DNA of 48,731 nt from Candidatus Spechtbacteria bacterium (GTDB taxonomy: Bacteria; Patescibacteriota; Minisyncoccia; Spechtbacterales; JACPHP01): the NCBI GenBank assembly GCA_016188605.1, contig JACPHP010000008.1, positions 1-48,731 on the forward strand, in the 5' to 3' direction. Under the pieces are notes generated by a model, which saw nothing but the letters and a program-made list of their open reading frames with translations, searched no databases and was not told where the DNA came from. Positions 10,512-46,725 of this stretch are shown here, in pieces (the stretch's first letter is position 1; every line of letters starts with the position of its first letter). A program made the translations under genes and the position numbers.

Positions 10512-10684
10512 GTTATCATCGCTGTTTTTACGCGAGCAATCTTGCTTATGTCATTGTTTATTCAATCCGATATAGATGCGCATCTTTTCTCCTATCACGG
10601 CTTGCCTCCTTTCTTCGGCGACTTATTAAAGAACATACCCTTTGACTCGTATCTCCCGTATTAGTGGGGGATACTCGCTCAGGG

Positions 10685-30202: not shown

Positions 30203-30231
30203 TTGACAAAATATCAATATAGGCGTATAAT
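30203..30231 (+). promoter_or_regulatory. Perfect consensus promoter P1 (hairpin array 1)
   Basis: TTGACA (30203-30208), exactly 17 bp, TATAAT (30226-30231). The downstream DNA is a run of hairpins, not a normal gene. Confidence 0.88.
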
Positions 30232-30605
30232 GACTTTTATGCAGAGTGAGGGGTCGGGCTACAACCGGCTACAGAATTCACTCTGAGTATTGATTTTAAG
30301 CGGAAAGCAAGCTACGCCTAGCTTACTTTCTAGAAAGGAAGAAGAGTGAAGCGGTGTATTTAGCCCACGGTAGAGGGGCTTAAAATACTCTATCCGGAAA
30401 TACGGCGCATGGGCTTCGCGCTGTAAATTCCGATTTTAATGAAGCGCCATAGGGCGGGTGTGGGGTCACTAGGGCTGTATACGCCCTCGCCGCTGACCCC
30501 TCCAAAGGAGGCACGATGACCATGCGTACATGGCCCTGGTAGAGGGCTTTAATCTCTACCCGGGAGGCTTGCGCGTCTGATGAAGATACGGCAGGCCCCC
30601 GAAAA
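30232..30605 (+). other. Hairpin array 1 (candidate structured transcript)
   Basis: Consecutive hairpins include CAGAGTGA/TCACTCTG, GAAAGcAAGCTA/TAGCTTaCTTTC, a GTATTT..GGGGCTTAAAATAC stem, CGGAAATAC.GGCGC / GCGCTGTAAATTCCG, GGGGTCA..AGGGC / GCCCT..TGACCCC, and GGTAGAG/CTCTACC. Purine-rich Shine-Dalgarno-like words (AGAAAGGAAGAAG, CCAAAGGAGG) lie between some of them, followed by frames of only a few codons such as MTMRTWPW. I see no protein gene of normal size. Confidence 0.7.
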
Positions 30606-30629
30606 AAATATTTAAAAACGTAAAAGCAC

Positions 30630-30658
30630 TTGACAAAAAATTAAATAGGGTGTATAAT
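30630..30658 (+). promoter_or_regulatory. Perfect consensus promoter P2 (hairpin array 2)
   Basis: TTGACA (30630-30635), 17 bp, TATAAT (30653-30658). From the -35 box through ACAAACATAA it is identical to P3 at 31083. Confidence 0.9.
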
Positions 30659-31075
30659 ACAAACATAAGCATAAATAAGTTACCTTTTCCTCTTTGCGCT
30701 TTGTTAGCAGAACGTAAAGAGGAGGAGGCTTACTTTGCGGGATCATACAACCCCCGCAGAGGAACAAGGCCTAATCTCCCAAGGTTGCCAGCAACCTTAT
30801 TGCTGGCTAAGCGAGACGAGTTCGTCGAGCTGTGCACCTCCCGCCCTGGAAAAGGGCCGGCAGGGTAGCCGCATGAACTCTCTCCTTGCAGGCGGGCCGC
30901 TAGGTCGGTACTCTCGCGCTCTCTTTTCTAGAGCCGACGAGTTGACCGGCGGCCCCTCCCTCCTTACTCTCCATGTTAAATGGAGGTGAAAGAGGGAGGT
31001 ATGTAAAAACACAATAATTACAAAGATATTATTTTACAAAAAAATGTAAAATAACACTTAGAATGTAATTCTGCC
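30659..31075 (+). other. Hairpin array 2 (candidate structured transcript)
   Basis: Hairpins in order: CCTCTTT..AAAGAGG, TGCGGG..CCCGCA, AAGGTTGC/GCAACCTT, GACGA/TCGTC, CCCTGGAAAAGGG, CCGC..GGTC / GACC..GCGG, CCTCCCTC..CTCCAT/ATGGAG..GAGGGAGG and TGTTATTTTACA-like arms near 31030-31055. Open frames of 60-85 codons exist but overlap in several phases and have no ribosome sites, so I do not call genes. Confidence 0.65.
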
Positions 31076-31082
31076 GAACCTA

Positions 31083-31111
31083 TTGACAAAAAATTAAATA
31101 GGGTGTATAAT
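31083..31111 (+). promoter_or_regulatory. Perfect consensus promoter P3 (hairpin array 3)
   Basis: TTGACA (31083-31088), 17 bp, TATAAT (31106-31111), with the same spacer as P2. Confidence 0.9.
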
Positions 31112-31236
31112 ACAAACATAAAGATGAAGGATGTGGAATGAGGAGGAGTCAATATTCAAAACATGGGACTACGCTCCTCATTCCAGATCTTTCATAAAAA
31201 ATCGCCCCCGCCAAGGCGGGGGCAGAAAGGAATCCA

Positions 31237-31308
31237 ATGAAAAGCGAGATCTGTCCGTCGTGCTCGCGCACGACGGACCGTCAAGGTCATTGCCGCTGCA
31301 GCAAGTAG
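31237..31308 (+). CDS. 23-aa CxxC/CxC mini-protein made of two hairpins
   Basis: AGAAAGGAATCCA precedes ATG, and the frame gives MKSEICPSCSRTTDRQGHCR followed by CSK and TAG. The spacing CPSC...CRC looks like a minimal zinc knuckle. The coding DNA contains one whole perfect hairpin (31253-31278) and the left arm and loop of the next. It may be real (ribosome site, Cys pattern shared with other mini-proteins in this window) or a chance frame in a structured RNA. Confidence 0.35.
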   Translation: MKSEICPSCSRTTDRQGHCRCSK

Positions 31309-31436
31309 CGGCAATGACCGAGCCCCACCATGCGTTTGCATGGTGGGGCTTCTGCATCATTAGAGGACCAAGTCGTCTGATGATGCGGGAGATAGCATTA
31401 TGGTTAACGCCACGGTGCCTCCTTGCACATTTCATA

Positions 31437-31476
31437 AAACCACGCCATCAGTTTTCGCTGATGGCGTGGTTTGTTT
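31437..31476 (+). terminator. Terminator of hairpin array 3
   Basis: AAACCACGCCATCAG / CTGATGGCGTGGTTT, 6-nt loop, followed by GTTTTAT. Confidence 0.88.
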
Positions 31477-31491
31477 TATCGCCGCGTTTTA

Positions 31492-41651: not shown

Positions 41652-41680
41652 TTGACAAAATAACCTAGTGGGTGTATAAT
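41652..41680 (+). promoter_or_regulatory. Perfect consensus promoter P4 (hairpin array 4 and gene cassettes)
   Basis: TTGACA (41652-41657), 17 bp, TATAAT (41675-41680), in the shared context GGGTGTATAATACA..CATAA seen in P2 and P3. Confidence 0.9.
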
Positions 41681-41981
41681 ACACGCATAAAGAATGAATG
41701 AAAGGGAGGTGTTCGGCGAGGCCTTATGTGGTGTTATCCACGTAGAGCATCGCCGGACCCCTCCCCGCTGACAGAGCTGGCTAGAGCGGGGAAGCCTCAA
41801 GACGCCAAGCGCGTATTGCCCTTAAGGCAAATGCGCATTGGCAGAGGTCAGTGTGGTCGCGAAAGCGGCCCGGGCAAGAAGGGACTATAAGTGGGTTTAA
41901 AACCCACTTATAGTCCCAGCCAGTACCTTCTAAATATCTTGGAGAGAGGACCCGAGCCCCTGGGTTAAAGGGCAACCTCGC

Positions 41982-42371
41982 ATGCGCGAGGCAAATAAGC
42001 GGAAAAAGACGATTGAAAGATCTTTTCTCTTCATGGTATTACCAATACACAAAGAGAAGAAGTTTTTCAATCGTTTTTCTTTTTTACCCAGCAGTTGCGG
42101 GGTAAAAAAGACCCTGAGCGAGCATAGCGAGTCGAAGGGTTACCACTATTCAGTATTCAAGCACCCAGAATGGAGAGAGAAAATAAAGATACGAGGCACT
42201 AAATTATATATTTTGGCCTATCGTTTATCTTCATTTACTCTCCGTTCTGGTTCCTTGAAACAAACTTCAGAGCGGCAGAGAGAACGCAATTTATTTGTAT
42301 TTTCTCTGCCGCTCTGGAAAAAGAGTGAGCTTACGGGCTCCGTCAGCCCTAATGACGGAAGGAGAAAATGA
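41982..42371 (+). CDS. Uncertain 129-codon frame in hairpin array 4
   Basis: An open frame with a very basic product (MREANKRKKTIERSFLFMVL at the start) that includes TLSEHSESKG, the translation of a CCCTGAGCGAGC..TCGAAGGG palindrome. There is no convincing ribosome site before its ATG. Its stop overlaps the next ATG as ATGA. The codon pattern is repeat-like, and I rate it as more likely non-coding structured RNA than a gene. Confidence 0.25.
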   Translation: MREANKRKKTIERSFLFMVLPIHKEKKFFNRFSFLPSSCGVKKTLSEHSESKGYHYSVFKHPEWREKIKIRGTKLYILAYRLSSFTLRSGSLKQTSERQRERNLFVFSLPLWKKSELTGSVSPNDGRRK

Positions 42372-42526
42372 AAATTTATTTCGGTTTCGCGCTCGCTGAC
42401 TCCATGTTCGATGGAGTCAGCGAAATCTCTCGGCGGACGCTGTCCGTCGAGAGATTAAGTCTCGGGTTAAGGCGGGGGTGGAATCCTGCCTCAACCCGAG
42501 CCATGGCGCCACGATTGGCGCCATGA
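42368..42526 (+). CDS. Uncertain 52-aa frame with strong Shine-Dalgarno
   Basis: GGAAGGAGAAA directly precedes ATG; the product starts MKIYFGFALADSMFDGVSEI and becomes Arg-rich. It runs through three perfect hairpins. Both ends overlap neighbouring frames by ATGA (42368-42371 and 42523-42526). The ribosome site favours translation; the absence of any recognisable fold and the hairpin-dictated codons count against. Confidence 0.35.
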   Translation: MKIYFGFALADSMFDGVSEISRRTLSVERLSLGLRRGWNPASTRAMAPRLAP

Positions 42527-42711
42527 GGGGTCGATACGGGATCGATGTTACGATCCCGGAGACCCCGCCCCGAGTAGCGCTCGGGGTTGGCGACTCAGTG
42601 GTGGTCATGGGGGTTCGCGGCTTGCCGCGGCTCACTGACCGCCACGAGTATTCGGAGGAGGAGATCGCTTCGGCGACATTCTCCTTCTCCGAATACACCG
42701 TCGTCAGTTAA
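42523..42711 (+). CDS. Possible 62-aa GC-rich protein in hairpin array 4
   Basis: The frame MRGRYGIDVTIPETPPRVAL continues GVGDSVVVMGVRGLPRLTDR and ends ASATFSFSEYTVVS. Its alternating hydrophobic strands look more protein-like than other frames here. Its ATG overlaps the previous stop as ATGA, and it has no ribosome site of its own. High GC matches the genes at 42989 and 44484. Confidence 0.4.
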   Translation: MRGRYGIDVTIPETPPRVALGVGDSVVVMGVRGLPRLTDRHEYSEEEIASATFSFSEYTVVS

Positions 42712-42938
42712 AAACTGACGACGAAAAATATTTTGCCAGTTAGAGTAAATTGGCAGGCGCGCCTCACGCCTGAAATCAGAGGTAGCCGGCCGATTCGCCT
42801 AGGGTGGATGGGCCGCAAAGAAGAAAGGAGAGTGGCTGTGGCGCAACAACGCCCGTGTCGCTCTCCTCTTTCGCCGAATTCATCATCACGAGGCGTAAGT
42901 TGAAGATGATGGGTTCAGAGAAGGACTTTAAAAAAAAT

Positions 42939-42982
42939 GGCCGCCTACGCTTAATAAGCTACGGCGTGCCGAATAAAGGAGG
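42939..42982 (+). promoter_or_regulatory. L-element 2: leader hairpin plus Shine-Dalgarno
   Basis: GGCCGCCTACGCTTAATAAG then CTACGGCGTGCCGAATAAAG and GAGG, with the ribosome site 6 bp before ATG 42989. The palindrome contains TAATAA stops and can fold on itself. Confidence 0.8.
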
Positions 42983-42988
42983 CACCAC

Positions 42989-43396
42989 ATGAGGTGCATG
43001 GCGAACTTCCTTCGCTGGCTCGCCAACAGGGTTGGCGGGTCTAGCGGAGGGGCCGCAGGGCGAGGACGCGGTCCTCGCCCTGCGGCCGGACGGCGGCCGG
43101 CTCCACGTGGTGGTCGGCCGCCGTTCCGCCCCCACCATCAGGGAGGGTGGGGGCGTTGGAGCATTCCGCTGGCACTTCTAGTGCTGGCGGCATGGTTCAT
43201 CATGAGCGGCAATGCCTTGGCGTTGGTAACAACGCTAGGCAATGCCGCCCAAGCCCTGATGGTCGCCGTGGGTCAGGTTCTCACGAACCTGATCGTCATG
43301 GCGATCATGCTCGTAGTCCTGTGGAAGCTCTTTGAGCTTTTCACAGGAGGTCTATTCCCGGGGCCTGGAAACGGGAAGAAAGGAGGCAAGAAGTAG
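42989..43396 (+). CDS. Gly/Arg/Pro-rich membrane protein, GC-rich, palindrome-packed
   Basis: A 135-aa protein. After a short amphipathic start (MRCMANFLRWLANRVGG) comes a low-complexity RGRGPRPAAGRRPAPRGGRP segment, then two hydrophobic helices (IPLALLVLAAWFIMSGNALA and VLTNLIVMAIMLVVLWKLFE) and a Lys/Gly tail. AAAGGAGG lies 6 bp before the ATG. Base composition is far above the GC of core genes. The coding DNA itself is full of palindromes, including a perfect 17-bp one at 43051-43087, GCCCCCACC/GGTGGGGGC and AGGTTC/GAACCT. No family recognised; likely a membrane protein with a nucleic-acid-binding or disordered cytoplasmic N-terminus. Confidence 0.7.
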   Translation: MRCMANFLRWLANRVGGSSGGAAGRGRGPRPAAGRRPAPRGGRPPFRPHHQGGWGRWSIPLALLVLAAWFIMSGNALALVTTLGNAAQALMVAVGQVLTNLIVMAIMLVVLWKLFELFTGGLFPGPGNGKKGGKK

Positions 43397-43402
43397 AGAA
43401 AG

Positions 43403-43426
43403 GGGAGGCGGTTCTAACCGCCTCCC
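43403..43426. terminator. Hairpin after the 42989 gene
   Basis: Perfect 11-bp GGGAGGCGGTT / AACCGCCTCCC with a CT loop, 6 bp past the stop. No T-run follows, so it may be a stabiliser rather than a terminator. Confidence 0.6.
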
Positions 43427-43431
43427 AACCT

Positions 43432-43490
43432 CATCAAAATCCAAGAAATTATTCGTGGATTTTGATGGGTTCTTAAACAAAAAAATAGTC
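43432..43490 (+). repeat. C-element 1
   Basis: Perfect arms CATCAAAATCCA / TGGATTTTGATG followed by GGTTCTTAAACAAAAAAATA and GTC. This is the simplest of four copies (others at 44122, 44341 and 46081) that share the arms and the 3' tail but differ in the loop. Confidence 0.9.
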
Positions 43491-43573
43491 TCGCACAGTT
43501 GCGGGGCACAGTCGTCTATGCTTGAACACAAGCTACGGCGTGCTGAAGAAAGCAAATGGACGATGTTCGTTTA

Positions 43574-43786
43574 TTATTTAAATTTTTCACGAGCAAGTCC
43601 GGACTGCTTCACAATTGCAAGCAGTGTGCCTTGAGGAATGGATTTATTATTCCCATGCAAGGGGACTGGCACGCTCGCATTGGTTTGCGGATTATGCCAA
43701 ATCATGTGGCTTCCTCGCTGGCGAGATAAAACAAAACCGTTATCGCGAAGAATTCGAATAACTTGTCTTGCGGTGAGAGCGCGCAT
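43574..43786 (-). CDS. hicA: HicA toxin (mRNA interferase)
   Basis: A 70-aa double-stranded-RNA-binding-fold RNase of the HicA/YcfA family that cuts mRNA when free. The protein reads MRALTARQVIRILRDNGFVL, then SRQRGSHMIWHNPQTNASVP, with the catalytic His27 in GSHMIW, and ends with GTLLAIVKQSGLAREKF. It starts 3 bp after the hicB stop, so the order is antitoxin then toxin. The pair is on the strand opposite to the surrounding array and has AT-rich core-like composition, so it looks like a separate insertion into the cassette region. Confidence 0.92.
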   Translation of the reverse strand: MRALTARQVIRILRDNGFVLSRQRGSHMIWHNPQTNASVPVPLHGNNKSIPQGTLLAIVKQSGLAREKFK

Positions 43787-43789
43787 AGA

Positions 43790-44038
43790 TTAAGGAAGAG
43801 CTACGCGGACCTCATCAATAATAGCCCTTGCAACCGCTTTGGGAATTTCTTGTTTGTGAGAAGTTAGTTCTTCAATCCACAATTCCAAAACTTCTTGCGC
43901 TTTTGCCTTAGCTTCTTCAAAATTCTTTCCAAAGGTTACGCATCCGGGAAAATCCGGGAAAGATACATTATATCCTCCCTCCTCCGCGGGATCAAACACG
44001 GCGAAATAAGATGAAATTTTATGAGTTTTTCTAGCCAT
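43790..44038 (-). CDS. hicB: HicB antitoxin
   Basis: An 82-aa HicB-like protein with the partial RNase H fold: SYFAVFDPAEEGGYNVSFPD, FPGCVTFGKNFEEAKAKAQE and VLELWIEEL. It binds and neutralises HicA. No separate helix-turn-helix or ribbon-helix-helix is visible, so autoregulation would need another surface. A TTGACT-16 bp-TATAAT promoter ends 6 bp before the ATG, which implies a leaderless transcript. Confidence 0.92.
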   Translation of the reverse strand: MARKTHKISSYFAVFDPAEEGGYNVSFPDFPGCVTFGKNFEEAKAKAQEVLELWIEELTSHKQEIPKAVARAIIDEVRVALP

Positions 44039-44044
44039 GTGCTT

Positions 44045-44072
44045 ATTATAGCTTCAAGGAAAGAGAAGTCAA
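44045..44072 (-). promoter_or_regulatory. hicBA promoter (leaderless)
   Basis: On the minus strand TTGACT (44067-44072), 16 bp, TATAAT (44045-44050), then AAGCAC and ATG. Confidence 0.75.
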
Positions 44073-44121
44073 CGCTAAGTCTTTTCTTGAGAAAAAACGT
44101 GCTTCTTATTGATTTAAGGCG

Positions 44122-44222
44122 AATCCATCAAAGTTTACAATTTAACTTATCATGGACGGCCGTCCATATTAAGTTAAATTCAAATTGTGGATTTTGATGG
44201 GTTCTTAAACAAAAAAATAGTC
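44122..44222 (+). repeat. C-element 2
   Basis: CCATCAAAG...CAATTTAACTTA faces TAAGTTAAATTCAAATTG..GGATTTTGATGG in part, with ATGGACGGCCGTCCAT at the tip and the conserved tail GGTTCTTAAACAAAAAAATA. Confidence 0.9.
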
Positions 44223-44242
44223 CAGTTCTAAAAGACTGGGCA

Positions 44243-44285
44243 GGCCGCCTACGCTTAATAAGCTACGGCGTGCCGAGGAAAGGAG
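44243..44285 (+). promoter_or_regulatory. L-element 4 without a following gene
   Basis: GGCCGCCTACGCTTAATAAG, CTACGGCGTGCCGAGGAAAG, GAG. No start codon follows at proper distance; instead a perfect 20-bp hairpin begins at 44296. The unit looks like a cassette that has lost its gene. Confidence 0.75.
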
Positions 44286-44295
44286 TTAAGAAAAA

Positions 44296-44339
44296 GTTAG
44301 CGGTAGTATTGCGCACTTGTGCGCAATACTACCGCTAAC
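44296..44339. repeat. Perfect 20-bp hairpin between L- and C-elements
   Basis: GTTAGCGGTAGTATTGCGCA and its exact complement around a CTTG loop. Confidence 0.97.
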
Positions 44340-44340
44340 G

Positions 44341-44442
44341 AATCTATCAAAGTTTACAATTTAGCTTTCAATACACGGCCGTGTATTGAAAGCTAAATTC
44401 AAATTGTGGATTTTGATGGGTTCTTTGAACAAAATAAATAAT
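44341..44442 (+). repeat. C-element 3
   Basis: Same outer arms as C-element 2 (ATCAAAGTTTACAATTTAGC; GCTAAATTCAAATTGTGGAT and TTTGATGG) but with a different tip, TTCAATACACGGCCGTGTAT then TGAA; the tail is GGTTCTTTGAACAAAATAAA. Confidence 0.9.
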
Positions 44443-44483
44443 CCCATCTCGCTACCGCGAGATGGGACGGAAAGGAGCGTTCC

Positions 44484-45878
44484 ATGTTTCCGGACATCGT
44501 GGTCCGGCTCGCCCAGGCCATGCAAGCGCGTGGCGGGCGGCTGTTCGTGGTCGGCGGGACTGTCCGGGACATGATTCTGGGCGTTCCGCCGAAGGACTTT
44601 GACCTCGAGGTGCACGGCATTGCGCCGTCGCGTCTCGAGGAGACCGTCGCCTCCTTTCATCCGAGCTGGATGGACACCGTGGGGCGTTCCTACGGCGTTC
44701 TGAAGGTTCGGATCGACGGGGAGGATTTGGACATAGCTCCACCCCGCCGAGACTCCAAGGTCGGAGAGGGTCACAAGGGGATCCTGGCGGTCCCTGACCC
44801 GACTATGACCTTGGAGGAAGCATGCCGTCGCCGTGACTTCACGGTTGGGGCGATGGCGATGGATCCCCTGACCGGAGAACTTTTTGACTTCTTCGGAGGT
44901 CAGGAAGATTTGCGGCAGGGGATTCTGCGGGCGACTGACCCGGAGCGGTTCGTGGACGATCCACTGCGCGTGATGCGCGCGGTGCAGTTCGCGGCCCGCT
45001 TCGGGTTTGCGGTGGAACAGGCAACAGCCGTGCTCTGCCGCAATGTCACTGCGACCAAAGAGTTTGTCGGCCAGTCGCCGGCGCGGGTTTCCGAGGAATG
45101 GCGCAAACTGCTTCTCAAGAGCCCGCAGCCGTCGGTGGGCTTGCAGGTCGGGCTGGAGCTTGGGGTGTGGGATGCACTGCACCCGGAGCTTGCGGCCTTG
45201 TGGATCTGCCCTCAGGATGCCAATTGGCACCCGGAAGGCAGTGTCGGCGAGCACACGAAATTGGCGGTGGACAAAGCTGCTGAAATCGTGCGCCGCGAAG
45301 GGCTGGCGGGGGACGACGCCCTGGTCATCATCCTGGCAGTCCTGCTTCATGATTCGGGGAAGCCGGCGACAACCGTCTTCATTGACGGCCGCTGGCGTTC
45401 CCCGAACCACGAGGCGGCGGGCGTGGATGCCGCGCGTAAGTTTTTTGCCCGAAACGCATTCGGGCGGGAGATTGAAGCGCGCGTTCTGCCGCTAATCGCC
45501 GATCACTTGTTTCCAGCCCAGCATGGGCTGGAGGTGAGTGATGCGGCGATTCGCCGCCTGGCACAGCGTCTGGTTCAGGCAACCATCGCGGAATTGGTGA
45601 TGGTGTCGGAGGCAGACGTGCTAGGCAGGGCTGTGCCTAATCGCGAGTTCGCGGAAGGTACGGCTCTGCTGGAGCAGGCGAAGACGCTGGCTGTCGGCTC
45701 GGGCAAGACCGAGCCATTGCTGATGGGGCGCCACCTCATCAGCGAGCTCGGCATGAAGCCGAATCGGCAGTTTAGCGAGATTCTCCGCGCCGTGTTTGAG
45801 GCGCAGCTTGAGGGTCGGGTTGCGACCATTGAGCAGGCGCTGGATATGGCGCGGGAGATTATGGCCGCCTACGCTTAA
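44484..45878 (+). CDS. cca: CCA-adding enzyme / poly(A) polymerase family nucleotidyltransferase with HD domain
   Basis: Adds CCA to tRNA 3' ends, which suits a genome where the two CAT-anticodon tRNAs in this window lack encoded CCA. The head domain has VVGGTVRDMILGVPPKDFDL with the GGxxRD signature (residues 24-29) and metal-binding Asp38 and Asp40, then RRRDFTVGAMAMDP and the DPLRVMRAVQFAARFGF region. A C-terminal HD hydrolase domain is seen (AVLLHDSGKPAT; LIADHLFPAQ). The 464-aa gene is much richer in GC than core genes and has a strong AAAGGAG site after a CCCATCTCGC hairpin. Its last codons (MAAYA and TAA) lie inside L-element 5. Probably acquired by transfer. Confidence 0.9.
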   Translation: MFPDIVVRLAQAMQARGGRLFVVGGTVRDMILGVPPKDFDLEVHGIAPSRLEETVASFHPSWMDTVGRSYGVLKVRIDGEDLDIAPPRRDSKVGEGHKGILAVPDPTMTLEEACRRRDFTVGAMAMDPLTGELFDFFGGQEDLRQGILRATDPERFVDDPLRVMRAVQFAARFGFAVEQATAVLCRNVTATKEFVGQSPARVSEEWRKLLLKSPQPSVGLQVGLELGVWDALHPELAALWICPQDANWHPEGSVGEHTKLAVDKAAEIVRREGLAGDDALVIILAVLLHDSGKPATTVFIDGRWRSPNHEAAGVDAARKFFARNAFGREIEARVLPLIADHLFPAQHGLEVSDAAIRRLAQRLVQATIAELVMVSEADVLGRAVPNREFAEGTALLEQAKTLAVGSGKTEPLLMGRHLISELGMKPNRQFSEILRAVFEAQLEGRVATIEQALDMAREIMAAYA

Positions 45879-45906
45879 AAAGCTACGGCGTGCCAAGGAA
45901 AGGAGG
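45863..45906 (+). promoter_or_regulatory. L-element 5 (overlaps end of cca)
   Basis: GGCCGCCTACGCTTAAAAAG, CTACGGCGTGCCAAGGAAAG, GAGG, 5 bp before ATG 45912. The TAA of cca is inside the element. Confidence 0.8.
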
Positions 45907-45911
45907 TTACG

Positions 45912-46040
45912 ATGAAAAATTTACGGACGCGAATTTTGTCCAGGAAGACCTGGACGTCGCGTCCTAGTAGTCCGCTCATCCGACGGATGAAGCGGATGCT
46001 AGCACGGCAACGGCGTAAACAGCCGTTGCCGTGCTACTAG
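45912..46040 (+). CDS. 42-aa Arg-rich peptide encoded by stacked hairpins
   Basis: Starts MKNLRTRILSRKTWTSRPSS and ends RQRRKQPLPCY; nearly a third of the residues are Arg or Lys. A strong AAGGAAAGGAGG lies 5 bp upstream. Its DNA contains three hairpins: GGACGCGA..GTCCAGG/CCTGGAC..TCGCGTCC, CCGCTCATCC/GGATGAAGCGG and CTAGCACGGCAACGGC/GCCGTTGCCGTGCTAG in part. Such a basic peptide could bind RNA, but the peptide may also be a by-product of structured RNA. Confidence 0.5.
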   Translation: MKNLRTRILSRKTWTSRPSSPLIRRMKRMLARQRRKQPLPCY

Positions 46041-46045
46041 ATAAG

Positions 46046-46079
46046 GCCTCGCTGTCAGCACACGTGCTGACAGCGAGGC
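46046..46079. repeat. Perfect 16-bp hairpin after the Arg-rich gene
   Basis: GCCTCGCTGTCAGCAC / GTGCTGACAGCGAGGC with a 2-nt loop, just before C-element 4. Confidence 0.95.
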
Positions 46080-46080
46080 G

Positions 46081-46144
46081 AATCCATCAAAGTTTATCGG
46101 CCTAAGGCGGATGGATTTTGCTGGGTTCTTAAACAAAAATAATC
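46081..46144 (+). repeat. C-element 4 (short, diverged)
   Basis: AATCCATCAAAGTTTATCGG, CCTAAGGCGGATGGATTTTG, CTGGGTTCTTAAACAAAAAT. The tail is conserved; the stem is shorter than in copies 2 and 3. Confidence 0.85.
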
Positions 46145-46159
46145 AGATAAAGCATTCTG

Positions 46160-46276
46160 GTTTCCACAGAGCCGCGGAGTCAATGTGAGATTTGTATAGC
46201 TTAGATGAAAATCTAAGCATCTCTCTCCATTTGTATAAATCATACATTGGTTTCCGGCTCTGTGGAAAAGTATTCC
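46160..46276. repeat. Long nested hairpin before L-element 6
   Basis: TTTCCACAGAGCC (46160-46172) pairs with GGCTCTGTGGAAA near 46256-46268; inside is a perfect GCTTAGAT-GAAA-ATCTAAGC hairpin (46198-46217). Confidence 0.85.
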
Positions 46277-46312
46277 ACTAGAAGTTTATAGTAGTGTCCT
46301 GCTAGGCGGGAC

Positions 46313-46353
46313 GGGCCGTCGTCGCTAAAGCTATGACGGCCAAAGAAAGGAAG
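46313..46353 (+). promoter_or_regulatory. L-element 6 (diverged)
   Basis: GGGCCGTCGTCGCTAAAGCT then ATGACGGCCAAAGAAAGGAA and GG, 6 bp before ATG 46360. The arms differ from L2 and L5 but the plan hairpin-GCCAAAG-Shine-Dalgarno is the same. Confidence 0.65.
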
Positions 46354-46359
46354 GTTGTC

Positions 46360-46599
46360 ATGAAAGACTTCGCGGGATATTCGTAGGCGGACCAGGATTT
46401 CCTGGCCCATATCTGCGAAGTTATGCGTCGTCTGGACGAGTTGGACGAGCTCGCCCACGAGGACGAGGAGTTCGTCCACAGGAATCATTACCGGATTCTT
46501 GCGGCTAGTCGCCCGCCAACGCCAATGGTTAACCGCGGCAACGATCGTGGAGGTCCTGGCGAGGAGGACCTCGGGCTCTACGGAGGAGGGCCCGTGTAG
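46360..46599 (+). pseudogene. 80-codon gene with in-frame amber at codon 9
   Basis: From ATG 46360 the frame reads MKDFAGYS, then TAG (46384-46386), then ADQDFLAHICEVMRRLDELD, ELAHEDEEFVHRNHYRILAA and on to a second TAG at 46597-46599. The part after the amber looks like normal protein and the L-element with AAAGGAAGG sets the start. It is either a pseudogene by a point mutation, a readthrough gene, or a gene starting lower down at ATG 46423. A terminator hairpin follows at 46603. Confidence 0.55.
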
Positions 46600-46602
46600 A
46601 CA

Positions 46603-46637
46603 TTGGCGCCCCCGCAACAGCGGGGGCGCCAAATCAT
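46603..46637 (+). terminator. Terminator closing the cassette region
   Basis: TTGGCGCCCCCGC / GCGGGGGCGCCAA with an AACA loop, followed by ATCATTTTT. Confidence 0.88.
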
Positions 46638-46725
46638 TTTTAAGGCATTCGCAAAGCGCCTATCCTTAACGGGGTTTACAAAATCTTCTAATGCTGATAA
46701 AAGATAATCATACTAATCACGAATG

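Follow-up and report, generated by a model that had tools for sequence, protein, structure and literature searches.

Viral genome-scale ordered RNA structure (GORS) is accompanied by excess folding energies of 7-24%, and its proposed role is to shield RNA from recognition (PMC7642675). Among bacteria, Gebert et al. inferred about 2.5% of open reading frames (ORFs) to be under selection for structure, with modest shifts (PMC6544989), and long, highly structured RNAs whose role is unclear are represented by OLE, ROOL and GOLLD (PMC12286853). Here, we describe hairpin-saturated RNA units, predicted at 30.2-31.5 kb and 41.7-46.6 kb of a 48,731-nt stretch of Candidatus Spechtbacteria DNA (the window), which is one chromosomal contig carrying dnaE, nusB and rnc in a bacterium with a tiny genome of 795 kb. 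We show computationally that the predicted structure of these loci exceeds two null expectations, prefers the transcript strand, covaries among homologues and recurs in other Patescibacteria.

Predicted hairpin saturation of promoter-led units

The window contains 52 perfect stems with arms of at least 10 bp and loops of up to 40 nt, as compared to 1-3 in shuffled sequence, and these cluster at 31.1-31.5 and 41.9-46.6 kb. Folds of 200-nt segments, scored against dinucleotide shuffles, were far below the shuffles at 30.6-31.5 and 41.6-46.7 kb (z to -14). An earlier note, made from the sequence alone, had described dense hairpins packed end to end and had named folding energy against dinucleotide shuffles as its refutation test; the hairpins are there, and the energies are clearly lower than in shuffled sequence. 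A ranking of 1-kb means against a regression null, covering nearly the whole genome, places the hairpin regions of the window at the top, and only contig C9 at 6.0-7.6 kb and contig C15 at 55-57 kb come close.

The four exact TTGACA-17-TATAAT promoters that the note had listed are present at 30203, 30630, 31083 and 41652. Exact consensus sites (16-18 nt spacing) occur 10 times in the whole genome; four of these lie inside the window, and a fifth, at C9:6239, also heads a hairpin array, which ends in a terminator. The promoter with its start sequence was rejected as an array marker, as the same pattern was found at array-free loci in G194 and G233; the promoter alone therefore does not define the class. 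On contig C105 of G233 (L131 1560-1710), the same promoter start sequence is followed by one very long hairpin with imperfect pairing (about 150 nt), which may be a small RNA. In the following list, U1, U2, U3 and U5 are predicted RNA units, P1-P4 promoters, and W1-W4 and E repeat hairpins.

30203..30231, plus strand: promoter P1, TTGACA-17-TATAAT (exact match)
30232..30620, plus strand: predicted RNA unit U1, hairpin-rich, the weakest array (folding; excess energy 12%)
30630..30658, plus strand: promoter P2 (exact match, repeat comparison)
30659..31010, plus strand: predicted RNA unit U2, hairpin order h1-h2-h3-h5-h6 in common with C9:6640-6900 (folding)
31083..31111, plus strand: promoter P3, 39 bases the same as in P2 (exact match)
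31112..31480, plus strand: predicted RNA unit U3, six end-to-end hairpins, then a terminator hairpin at 31437-31472 (folding)
41652..41680, plus strand: promoter P4 (exact match)
41681..46632, plus strand: RNA unit U5, predicted 5-kb hairpin-saturated transcription unit (folding, ranking, excess energy)
41681..42367, plus strand: untranslated leader with about 10 hairpins (folding; excess energy 49%)
42368..42715, plus strand: gene of predicted AcrIII-1/Crn2 fold (ring-nuclease-like), hairpin-tiled, with a 1-nt deletion near 42448 (homologues, fold)
42424..42456, plus strand: 15-bp perfect hairpin across the frameshift site (helix inspection)
42937..42983, plus strand: hairpin element E in the 5' untranslated region, with a UAC/UAC internal loop, then AAAGGAGG (repeat search)
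44241-44286 and 45861-45906: further copies of element E, with weaker relatives near 43510 and 46305 (repeat search)
42989..43396, plus strand: P0001, gene of a 135-amino-acid Arg/Gly/Pro-rich membrane protein, hairpin-recoded (synonymous z -12)
43416..43490, plus strand: repeat hairpin W1 with 3' end GGGTTCTTAAACAAAA, boxA-like (repeat search)
43574..43786, minus strand: HicA toxin gene, unstructured; hairpin repeats on either side of the HicAB pair (profile match, folding)
43790..44038, minus strand: HicB antitoxin gene; a promoter-like site of its own lies on the minus strand at 44072 (profile match)
44117..44222, plus strand: repeat hairpin W2 (repeat search)
44296..44339, plus strand: 20-bp perfect hairpin in a gene-less unit (stem search)
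44336..44441, plus strand: repeat hairpin W3 (four compensatory pair changes relative to W2)
44484..45878, plus strand: CCA-like nucleotidyltransferase/HD gene, intact, hairpin-recoded (synonymous z -15.7)
45912..46040, plus strand: possible 42-amino-acid basic ORF overlapping hairpins (ORF list)
46076..46146, plus strand: repeat hairpin W4 (repeat search)
46603..46632, plus strand: terminator hairpin closing U5, 13 bp, 11 of them G-C (folding)

Excess folding energy, expressed in percent over dinucleotide shuffles of 250-nt fragments, amounts to 27.5% for the genome's own 16S rRNA and to 2.6% for dnaE. Values for the noncoding units are 12% in U1 (z -1.8), 33% in U2, 94% in U3 and 34% in the C9 array. 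Within U5, the ring-nuclease-fold gene (59%), P0001 (49%) and the CCA-like gene (27%) stand beside the leader (49%) and the parts at 44100-44480 (102%) and 45880-46640 (51%), whereas the fragment at 43400-43500 reaches 129% but is short and its value hence noisy. The HicAB pair at 43574-44038, inserted antisense within the array and flanked by identical 36-nt repeats, has 12.8% and was counted as unstructured.

The observation made in the note is thus confirmed, with some corrections. A run of hairpins behind each promoter describes U2, U3 (with its six hairpins and terminator) and U5 well and the weaker U1 less so; the two promoters said to be identical over about 39 bp are P2 and P3, which agree over 39 bases from 30630 and 31083. 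Hairpins do continue through and between genes towards 46640, with the genes recoded into hairpins, except across the unstructured HicAB insert. Hairpin arms, held not to repeat, are mostly unique, save for two hairpin families that repeat within 41.7-46.6 kb. The repeat structure agrees with the note that this is neither an array of clustered regularly interspaced short palindromic repeats (CRISPR), as the repeat families are irregular and 219-1705 nt apart, nor a tandem repeat, nor of the repetitive extragenic palindrome (REP) or bacterial interspersed mosaic element (BIME) type, given that the arms are mostly unique.

Coding sequence was compared with a synonymous null in which codons are shuffled within each gene while protein sequence and codon counts stay fixed. 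Synonymous z reaches -15.7 for the CCA-like gene, -12 for P0001 and -9.6 for the ring-nuclease-fold gene, as compared to a mean of -1.2 and a minimum of -5.6 among 90 random genes of the genome, about -0.4 to -1.5 for the neighbouring genes dnaE, SHMT, amidohydrolase and HicB, and a median of -1.4 for the 45 ORFs with the highest G+C content at third codon positions (GC3). The genes of U5 are themselves part of the hairpin array, which is not confined to the stretches between them. In the CCA-like gene the GGxxRD, DxD and HD motifs are intact and the HD domain is present; it is the second copy in the genome, the housekeeping one being located on contig C9. That CCA-like genes are structured everywhere was ruled out by four homologues of 46-52% identity in other genomes (z about 0 to -2); the hairpin property therefore belongs to the locus and not to the gene.

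Other observations concern structured sequence elsewhere in the genome and the window. The gene at C15:55640-56830 (L061 15640-16830, minus strand) is GC-rich and hairpin-recoded (z -7 to -10), carries zinc-ribbon-like motifs and an apparent frameshift near its start, lies downstream of the 5S rRNA, and is likely a further member of the hairpin-recoded class. On the same contig (L062 4602 to L061 17460), the 23S rRNA gene extends over about 7 kb with insertions, one of which matches a group I intron, and the 16S rRNA gene is about 12 kb away. At C3:51490-52440 (L041 11490-12440), a gene with a GC3 of 0.84, a CPRC...CYRC motif and a synonymous z of -5 has a TTGACA-led promoter-like sequence upstream and a terminator-like hairpin at its end. 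Short stretches near tRNA genes at 9.1-11.5 kb of the window also have folding energies well under those of shuffled sequence, with z down to -14 at 10601. The palindrome CCCTGAGC...GAAGGGT at 42105-42144 has a second copy at C10:32648 and is a dispersed repeat, and U3 includes a possible 23-amino-acid Cys-rich ORF (from about 31237) across two hairpins.

Apparent RNA-level selection and recurrence in Patescibacteria

The excess over the synonymous null is greater on the transcript than on the reverse strand for the CCA-like gene (z -15.7 versus -9.9), P0001 (-12 versus -9.7) and the ring-nuclease-fold gene (-9.6 versus -5.5), and each of the 11 ring-nuclease-fold homologues compared shows the same preference, the transcript strand being further beyond its null than the reverse strand is. 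This advantage arises because G-U pairs sit where the transcript benefits from them. Tetraloops of the GNRA and cUNCG types, counted over twelve structured regions of several genomes, number 18 on the transcript strand versus 4 on the other (p=0.002) and make up 11.9% of tetraloops as compared to a shuffled expectation of 4.6%. A cruciform or recombination hairpin would treat both strands alike, so the strand bias points to structure selected at the level of RNA rather than DNA, and it disfavours the note's suggestion of an element replicated or recombined through DNA hairpins.

Paired positions have also changed in concert. Of the paired positions in repeat hairpins W2 and W3, 13 are different between the two copies; 4 compensatory pairs result, where 0.45 were expected and the maximum in 2000 simulations was 3. 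Between U2 and the C9 array, hairpins match in order with several two-sided pair changes, a comparison of two sequences only. Covariation was further tested with 11 ring-nuclease-fold sequences, aligned without gaps over 130 nt of coding sequence, in which codons were swapped within columns among sequences with the same residue. Summed folding energy had a z of -4.4, with 0 of 300 permutations as stable (reverse strand -3.3), and compensatory cells numbered 10 versus 4.8 after permutation (7 of 1000). Covariation in related genomes, which the note had put forward as a check, is thus found, and its view that the pattern is kept for structure gains from both null comparisons, the W2/W3 compensation, the cross-species covariation and the favoured transcript strand. 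At these loci, selection seems to act on the structure of the RNA itself.

Homologues of the ring-nuclease-fold gene occur in Yanofskybacteria, other Paceibacteria, Uhrbacteria and six Saccharibacteria (46-72% identity), with one more at 29%; those in Saccharibacteria and Paceibacteria are mostly preceded by consensus promoters. An AlphaFold model built from ten homologues has a predicted local distance difference test score of 92, and all 16 Foldseek matches in the PDB with E <0.001 are AcrIII-1, STIV B116, AFV3-109 and Csx1-Crn2 (best match E 1.8e-6, template-modelling score 0.71). By this predicted structure, the product family of 42368-42715 is of AcrIII-1/Crn2 (DUF1874) ring-nuclease fold, and its members are putative ring nucleases; the histidine in NPSH is nearly invariant across the homologues. 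Pfam gave no match at E 0.1 and sequence searches of the PDB no identification, so that fold comparison alone identified the family. The window copy is frameshifted by the 1-nt deletion near 42448, which falls within the now-perfect 15-bp hairpin; either the structure has persisted after loss of the frame, or the deletion arose recently or is a sequence error. A homologue in G026 has an in-frame TAG.

Relatives of the ring-nuclease-fold protein were found neither in IMG/VR nor in phage records, one weak match being to a plasmid, and relatives of P0001 are absent from IMG/VR. A viral origin of the cargo was rejected on these searches. The likeness of P0001 to a 2TM effector is weak (E 0.006), and we do not rely on it. 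Ring-nuclease-fold genes are present in Patescibacteria although Csm1/Cas10 was nowhere over the cut-off in 55 genomes, i.e., this genome and 54 relatives of its class.

Comparable islands occur in other members of the phylum. In the Candidatus Yanofskybacteria genome G204, the homologue lies near rnc, within an array of small ORFs that is 6 kb long; three consensus promoters, nearly identical, stand there in tandem, and an intergenic hairpin is repeated in four copies whose differences preserve pairs. Genome G002, of the same order, has an island with two consensus promoters and hairpins followed by a CCA-like homologue; the ORFs of the island encode a Csx20-like protein (weak hidden Markov model support, synonymous z -9.4) and a zinc-finger-like protein, and a second promoter-led island encodes a cREC domain of cyclic-phosphate type (E 6e-22). 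ARAGORN did not confirm a sequence in the G002 array that resembles a tRNA. In G001, long hairpins occur at a contig end together with two consensus promoters, and most homologues in Saccharibacteria follow an exact consensus promoter, several with structured leaders. As the islands come from independent assemblies, an assembly artefact is unlikely. Saccharibacteria also have KGG-repeat stress-type genes (L178 7356-7670, L171 5221-5530) with a consensus promoter and a GGTGGGCA leader sequence; this combination is common to the KGG-repeat and the ring-nuclease-fold genes, and the leader is possibly a conserved leader RNA.

Proposed role and competing explanations

We propose, with even odds, that near-consensus sigma-70 promoters drive stem-loop-chain RNAs that are selected for structure and thereby protected from factors that depend on single strands. 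A few such promoters would give rise to transcripts of 0.4-6 kb that are continuous chains of short stem-loops. Some units would be noncoding (30.2-31.5 kb, contig C9), whereas others (41.7-46.6 kb) would be mRNAs that encode a second CCA-like enzyme as well as small proteins spread by horizontal transfer, with synonymous codons chosen such that the coding RNA folds into hairpins as well. The RNAs would be abundant and, as the long untranslated stretches and broken frames suggest, poorly translated, and hence exposed to RNases, Rho and R-loop formation. Folding during transcription would deny single-stranded RNA to RNase E/Y-type endonucleases, to Rho and to the template strand.

Classical RNase III substrates have a length requirement, and most helices here are probably too short for it; only 3 of 327 reach at least 20 bp. 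The note's proposal of an RNase III substrate is thus plausible for the few long repeat hairpins. The W1-W4 hairpins are longer and have at their end the boxA-like sequence GTTCTT(A/T)(A/G)A, which also occurs in C9; it lies between genes and is partly paired in the predicted fold. Together with the nearby nusB and rnc, this suggests that processing by RNase III or Nus-type antitermination may be added.

Several points weigh against this proposal. The promoters, the full-length RNA and its abundance are inferred, folding energies are predicted, and the HicAB pair lying antisense inside U5 makes a single 5-kb RNA not certain. The broken frames in the window and in G026 may mean that some such genes are decaying. 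Two of the 11 homologues (L173, L174) are hardly structured, and the codon permutation ignores phylogeny, which affects the pair counts more than the energies. Genome-wide, the boxA-like motif is no commoner than a reversed control pattern, and four of its five array copies are one repeat. In published work, coding structure in general did not correlate with expression level (PMC6544989).

An extension that we advance tentatively, and on balance rather doubt, is that these loci are undescribed mobile expression islands of Patescibacteria, each with a dedicated consensus promoter, whose transcripts are selected to be hairpins from end to end, also within coding sequence, and act as RNA armour against single-strand nucleases or RNA-guided immunity, together with proteins that degrade cyclic nucleotides. 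A narrower variant, unlikely in our view, sees mobile counter-defence cassettes whose hairpins block crRNA (CRISPR RNA) pairing in type III or other RNA-targeting immunity, with their ring nucleases removing the alarm signal, cyclic oligoadenylate. The cargo suits such a shield (the AcrIII-1/Crn2 fold, the weakly supported Csx20-like protein and the cREC domain), identities of 64-72% across classes imply transfer, and viral GORS has likewise been proposed to hide RNA from recognition (PMC7642675). However, Csm1/Cas10 was not over the cut-off in this genome or the 54 relatives, noncoding arrays and a CCA-like enzyme would need no shield, the ring-nuclease gene of the window is frameshifted, and the viral collections searched held no homologue.

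Still less probable are structural or packaged RNAs, i.e., scaffolds, protein sponges or particle cargo resembling the hairpin-rich RNAs of small RNA viruses or ornate bacterial RNAs. U2 and C9 do retain their hairpin order despite changed sequence, long ORFs are not evident in the noncoding units, and excess energy is at or above that of rRNA. Yet Rfam offers no family, the genomes have no sequence motif that was recognised as common to them, the hairpin state extends to coding genes, and no capsid or encapsulin was seen among the genes examined. The scaffold RNA suggested in the note fits at most the noncoding units, as the 5-kb unit consists largely of protein genes recoded into hairpins.

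We consider a purely mutational origin very unlikely. In this view, inverted repeats in DNA with much transcription would be perfected, in the absence of selection, by template switching at quasi-palindromes, and the non-template strand would then acquire C-to-T and A-to-G changes that yield G-U pairs, which could mimic part of the G-U asymmetry; the arms are unique and often perfect, and the ring-nuclease-fold gene has its 1-nt deletion at the site of a perfect hairpin. This process does not predict the strand bias of GNRA and UNCG loops, nor the conserved hairpin positions and covariation in homologues, and the CCA-like gene, despite its synonymous z, encodes an intact protein that has 46-52% identity to the closest homologues. 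Least probable of all is an integron-like DNA cassette array with intergenic repeat hairpins as recombination sites and the promoters as capture promoters: small variable genes do lie between genome-specific repeated hairpins here and in G204, and identical 36-nt repeats flank HicAB, but no integron integrase was over the cut-off (TIGR02249, 24.6 bits versus 265), no GTTRRRY/RYYYAAC pair of attC R boxes was recognised on inspection by eye only, the structure runs through coding sequence as well, and the strand bias points to RNA.

Protein function, codon usage and translation are usually seen as the forces that shape bacterial coding sequences. Here, an apparently intact protein gene has been recoded such that the predicted structure of its mRNA equals that of rRNA, and other strongly promoted loci of the phylum tend the same way. 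If our proposal of structure-selected stem-loop-chain RNAs is true, RNA architecture would be a primary selected trait of some bacterial mRNAs, and a property of RNA viruses would exist in a bacterial chromosome. The CCA-like gene offers natural pairs of structured and unstructured homologues for questions of decay, termination, translation and RNA-guided immunity.

Relation to known structured RNAs

Rfam at the gathering threshold returned only tRNAs and no other family of structured RNA, riboswitches included, permissive scans gave generic hairpin matches far below cut-off, and neither Rfam nor the literature found describes hairpin-saturated units like these. OLE, ROOL and GOLLD are alike in length and degree of structure, but their conserved fold is captured by a covariance model, whereas the units here match none and include protein genes. 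Ribosomal RNA operons with boxB-boxA share a strong promoter, rRNA-like structure, a hairpin followed by a boxA-like sequence, and nusB close by; here, however, the boxA-like sequence is intergenic, partly in a stem and not enriched genome-wide. With the AcrIII-1/Crn2 ring nucleases, the encoded family has its predicted fold in common while lacking a Pfam match, a likeness that concerns the cargo and not the RNA feature. The coding-structure selection of Gebert et al. is similar in that the synonymous arrangement is more structured than chance (PMC6544989), but here whole loci, coding and noncoding, are affected at the level of rRNA. Viral GORS is alike in its consecutive stem-loops through coding and noncoding sequence, which are not base-specific (PMC7642675). 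Judged as GORS is judged, all segments here show 27-129% excess except U1 (12%) and the antisense HicAB insert (13%); as fragment sizes differ, the comparison with the 7-24% of viral GORS is approximate. Unlike viral GORS, these units belong to a few loci with sigma-70 promoters on a bacterial DNA chromosome and not to an RNA-virus genome. The closest analogue of the hairpin-saturated units is thus viral GORS, without the host that defines it.

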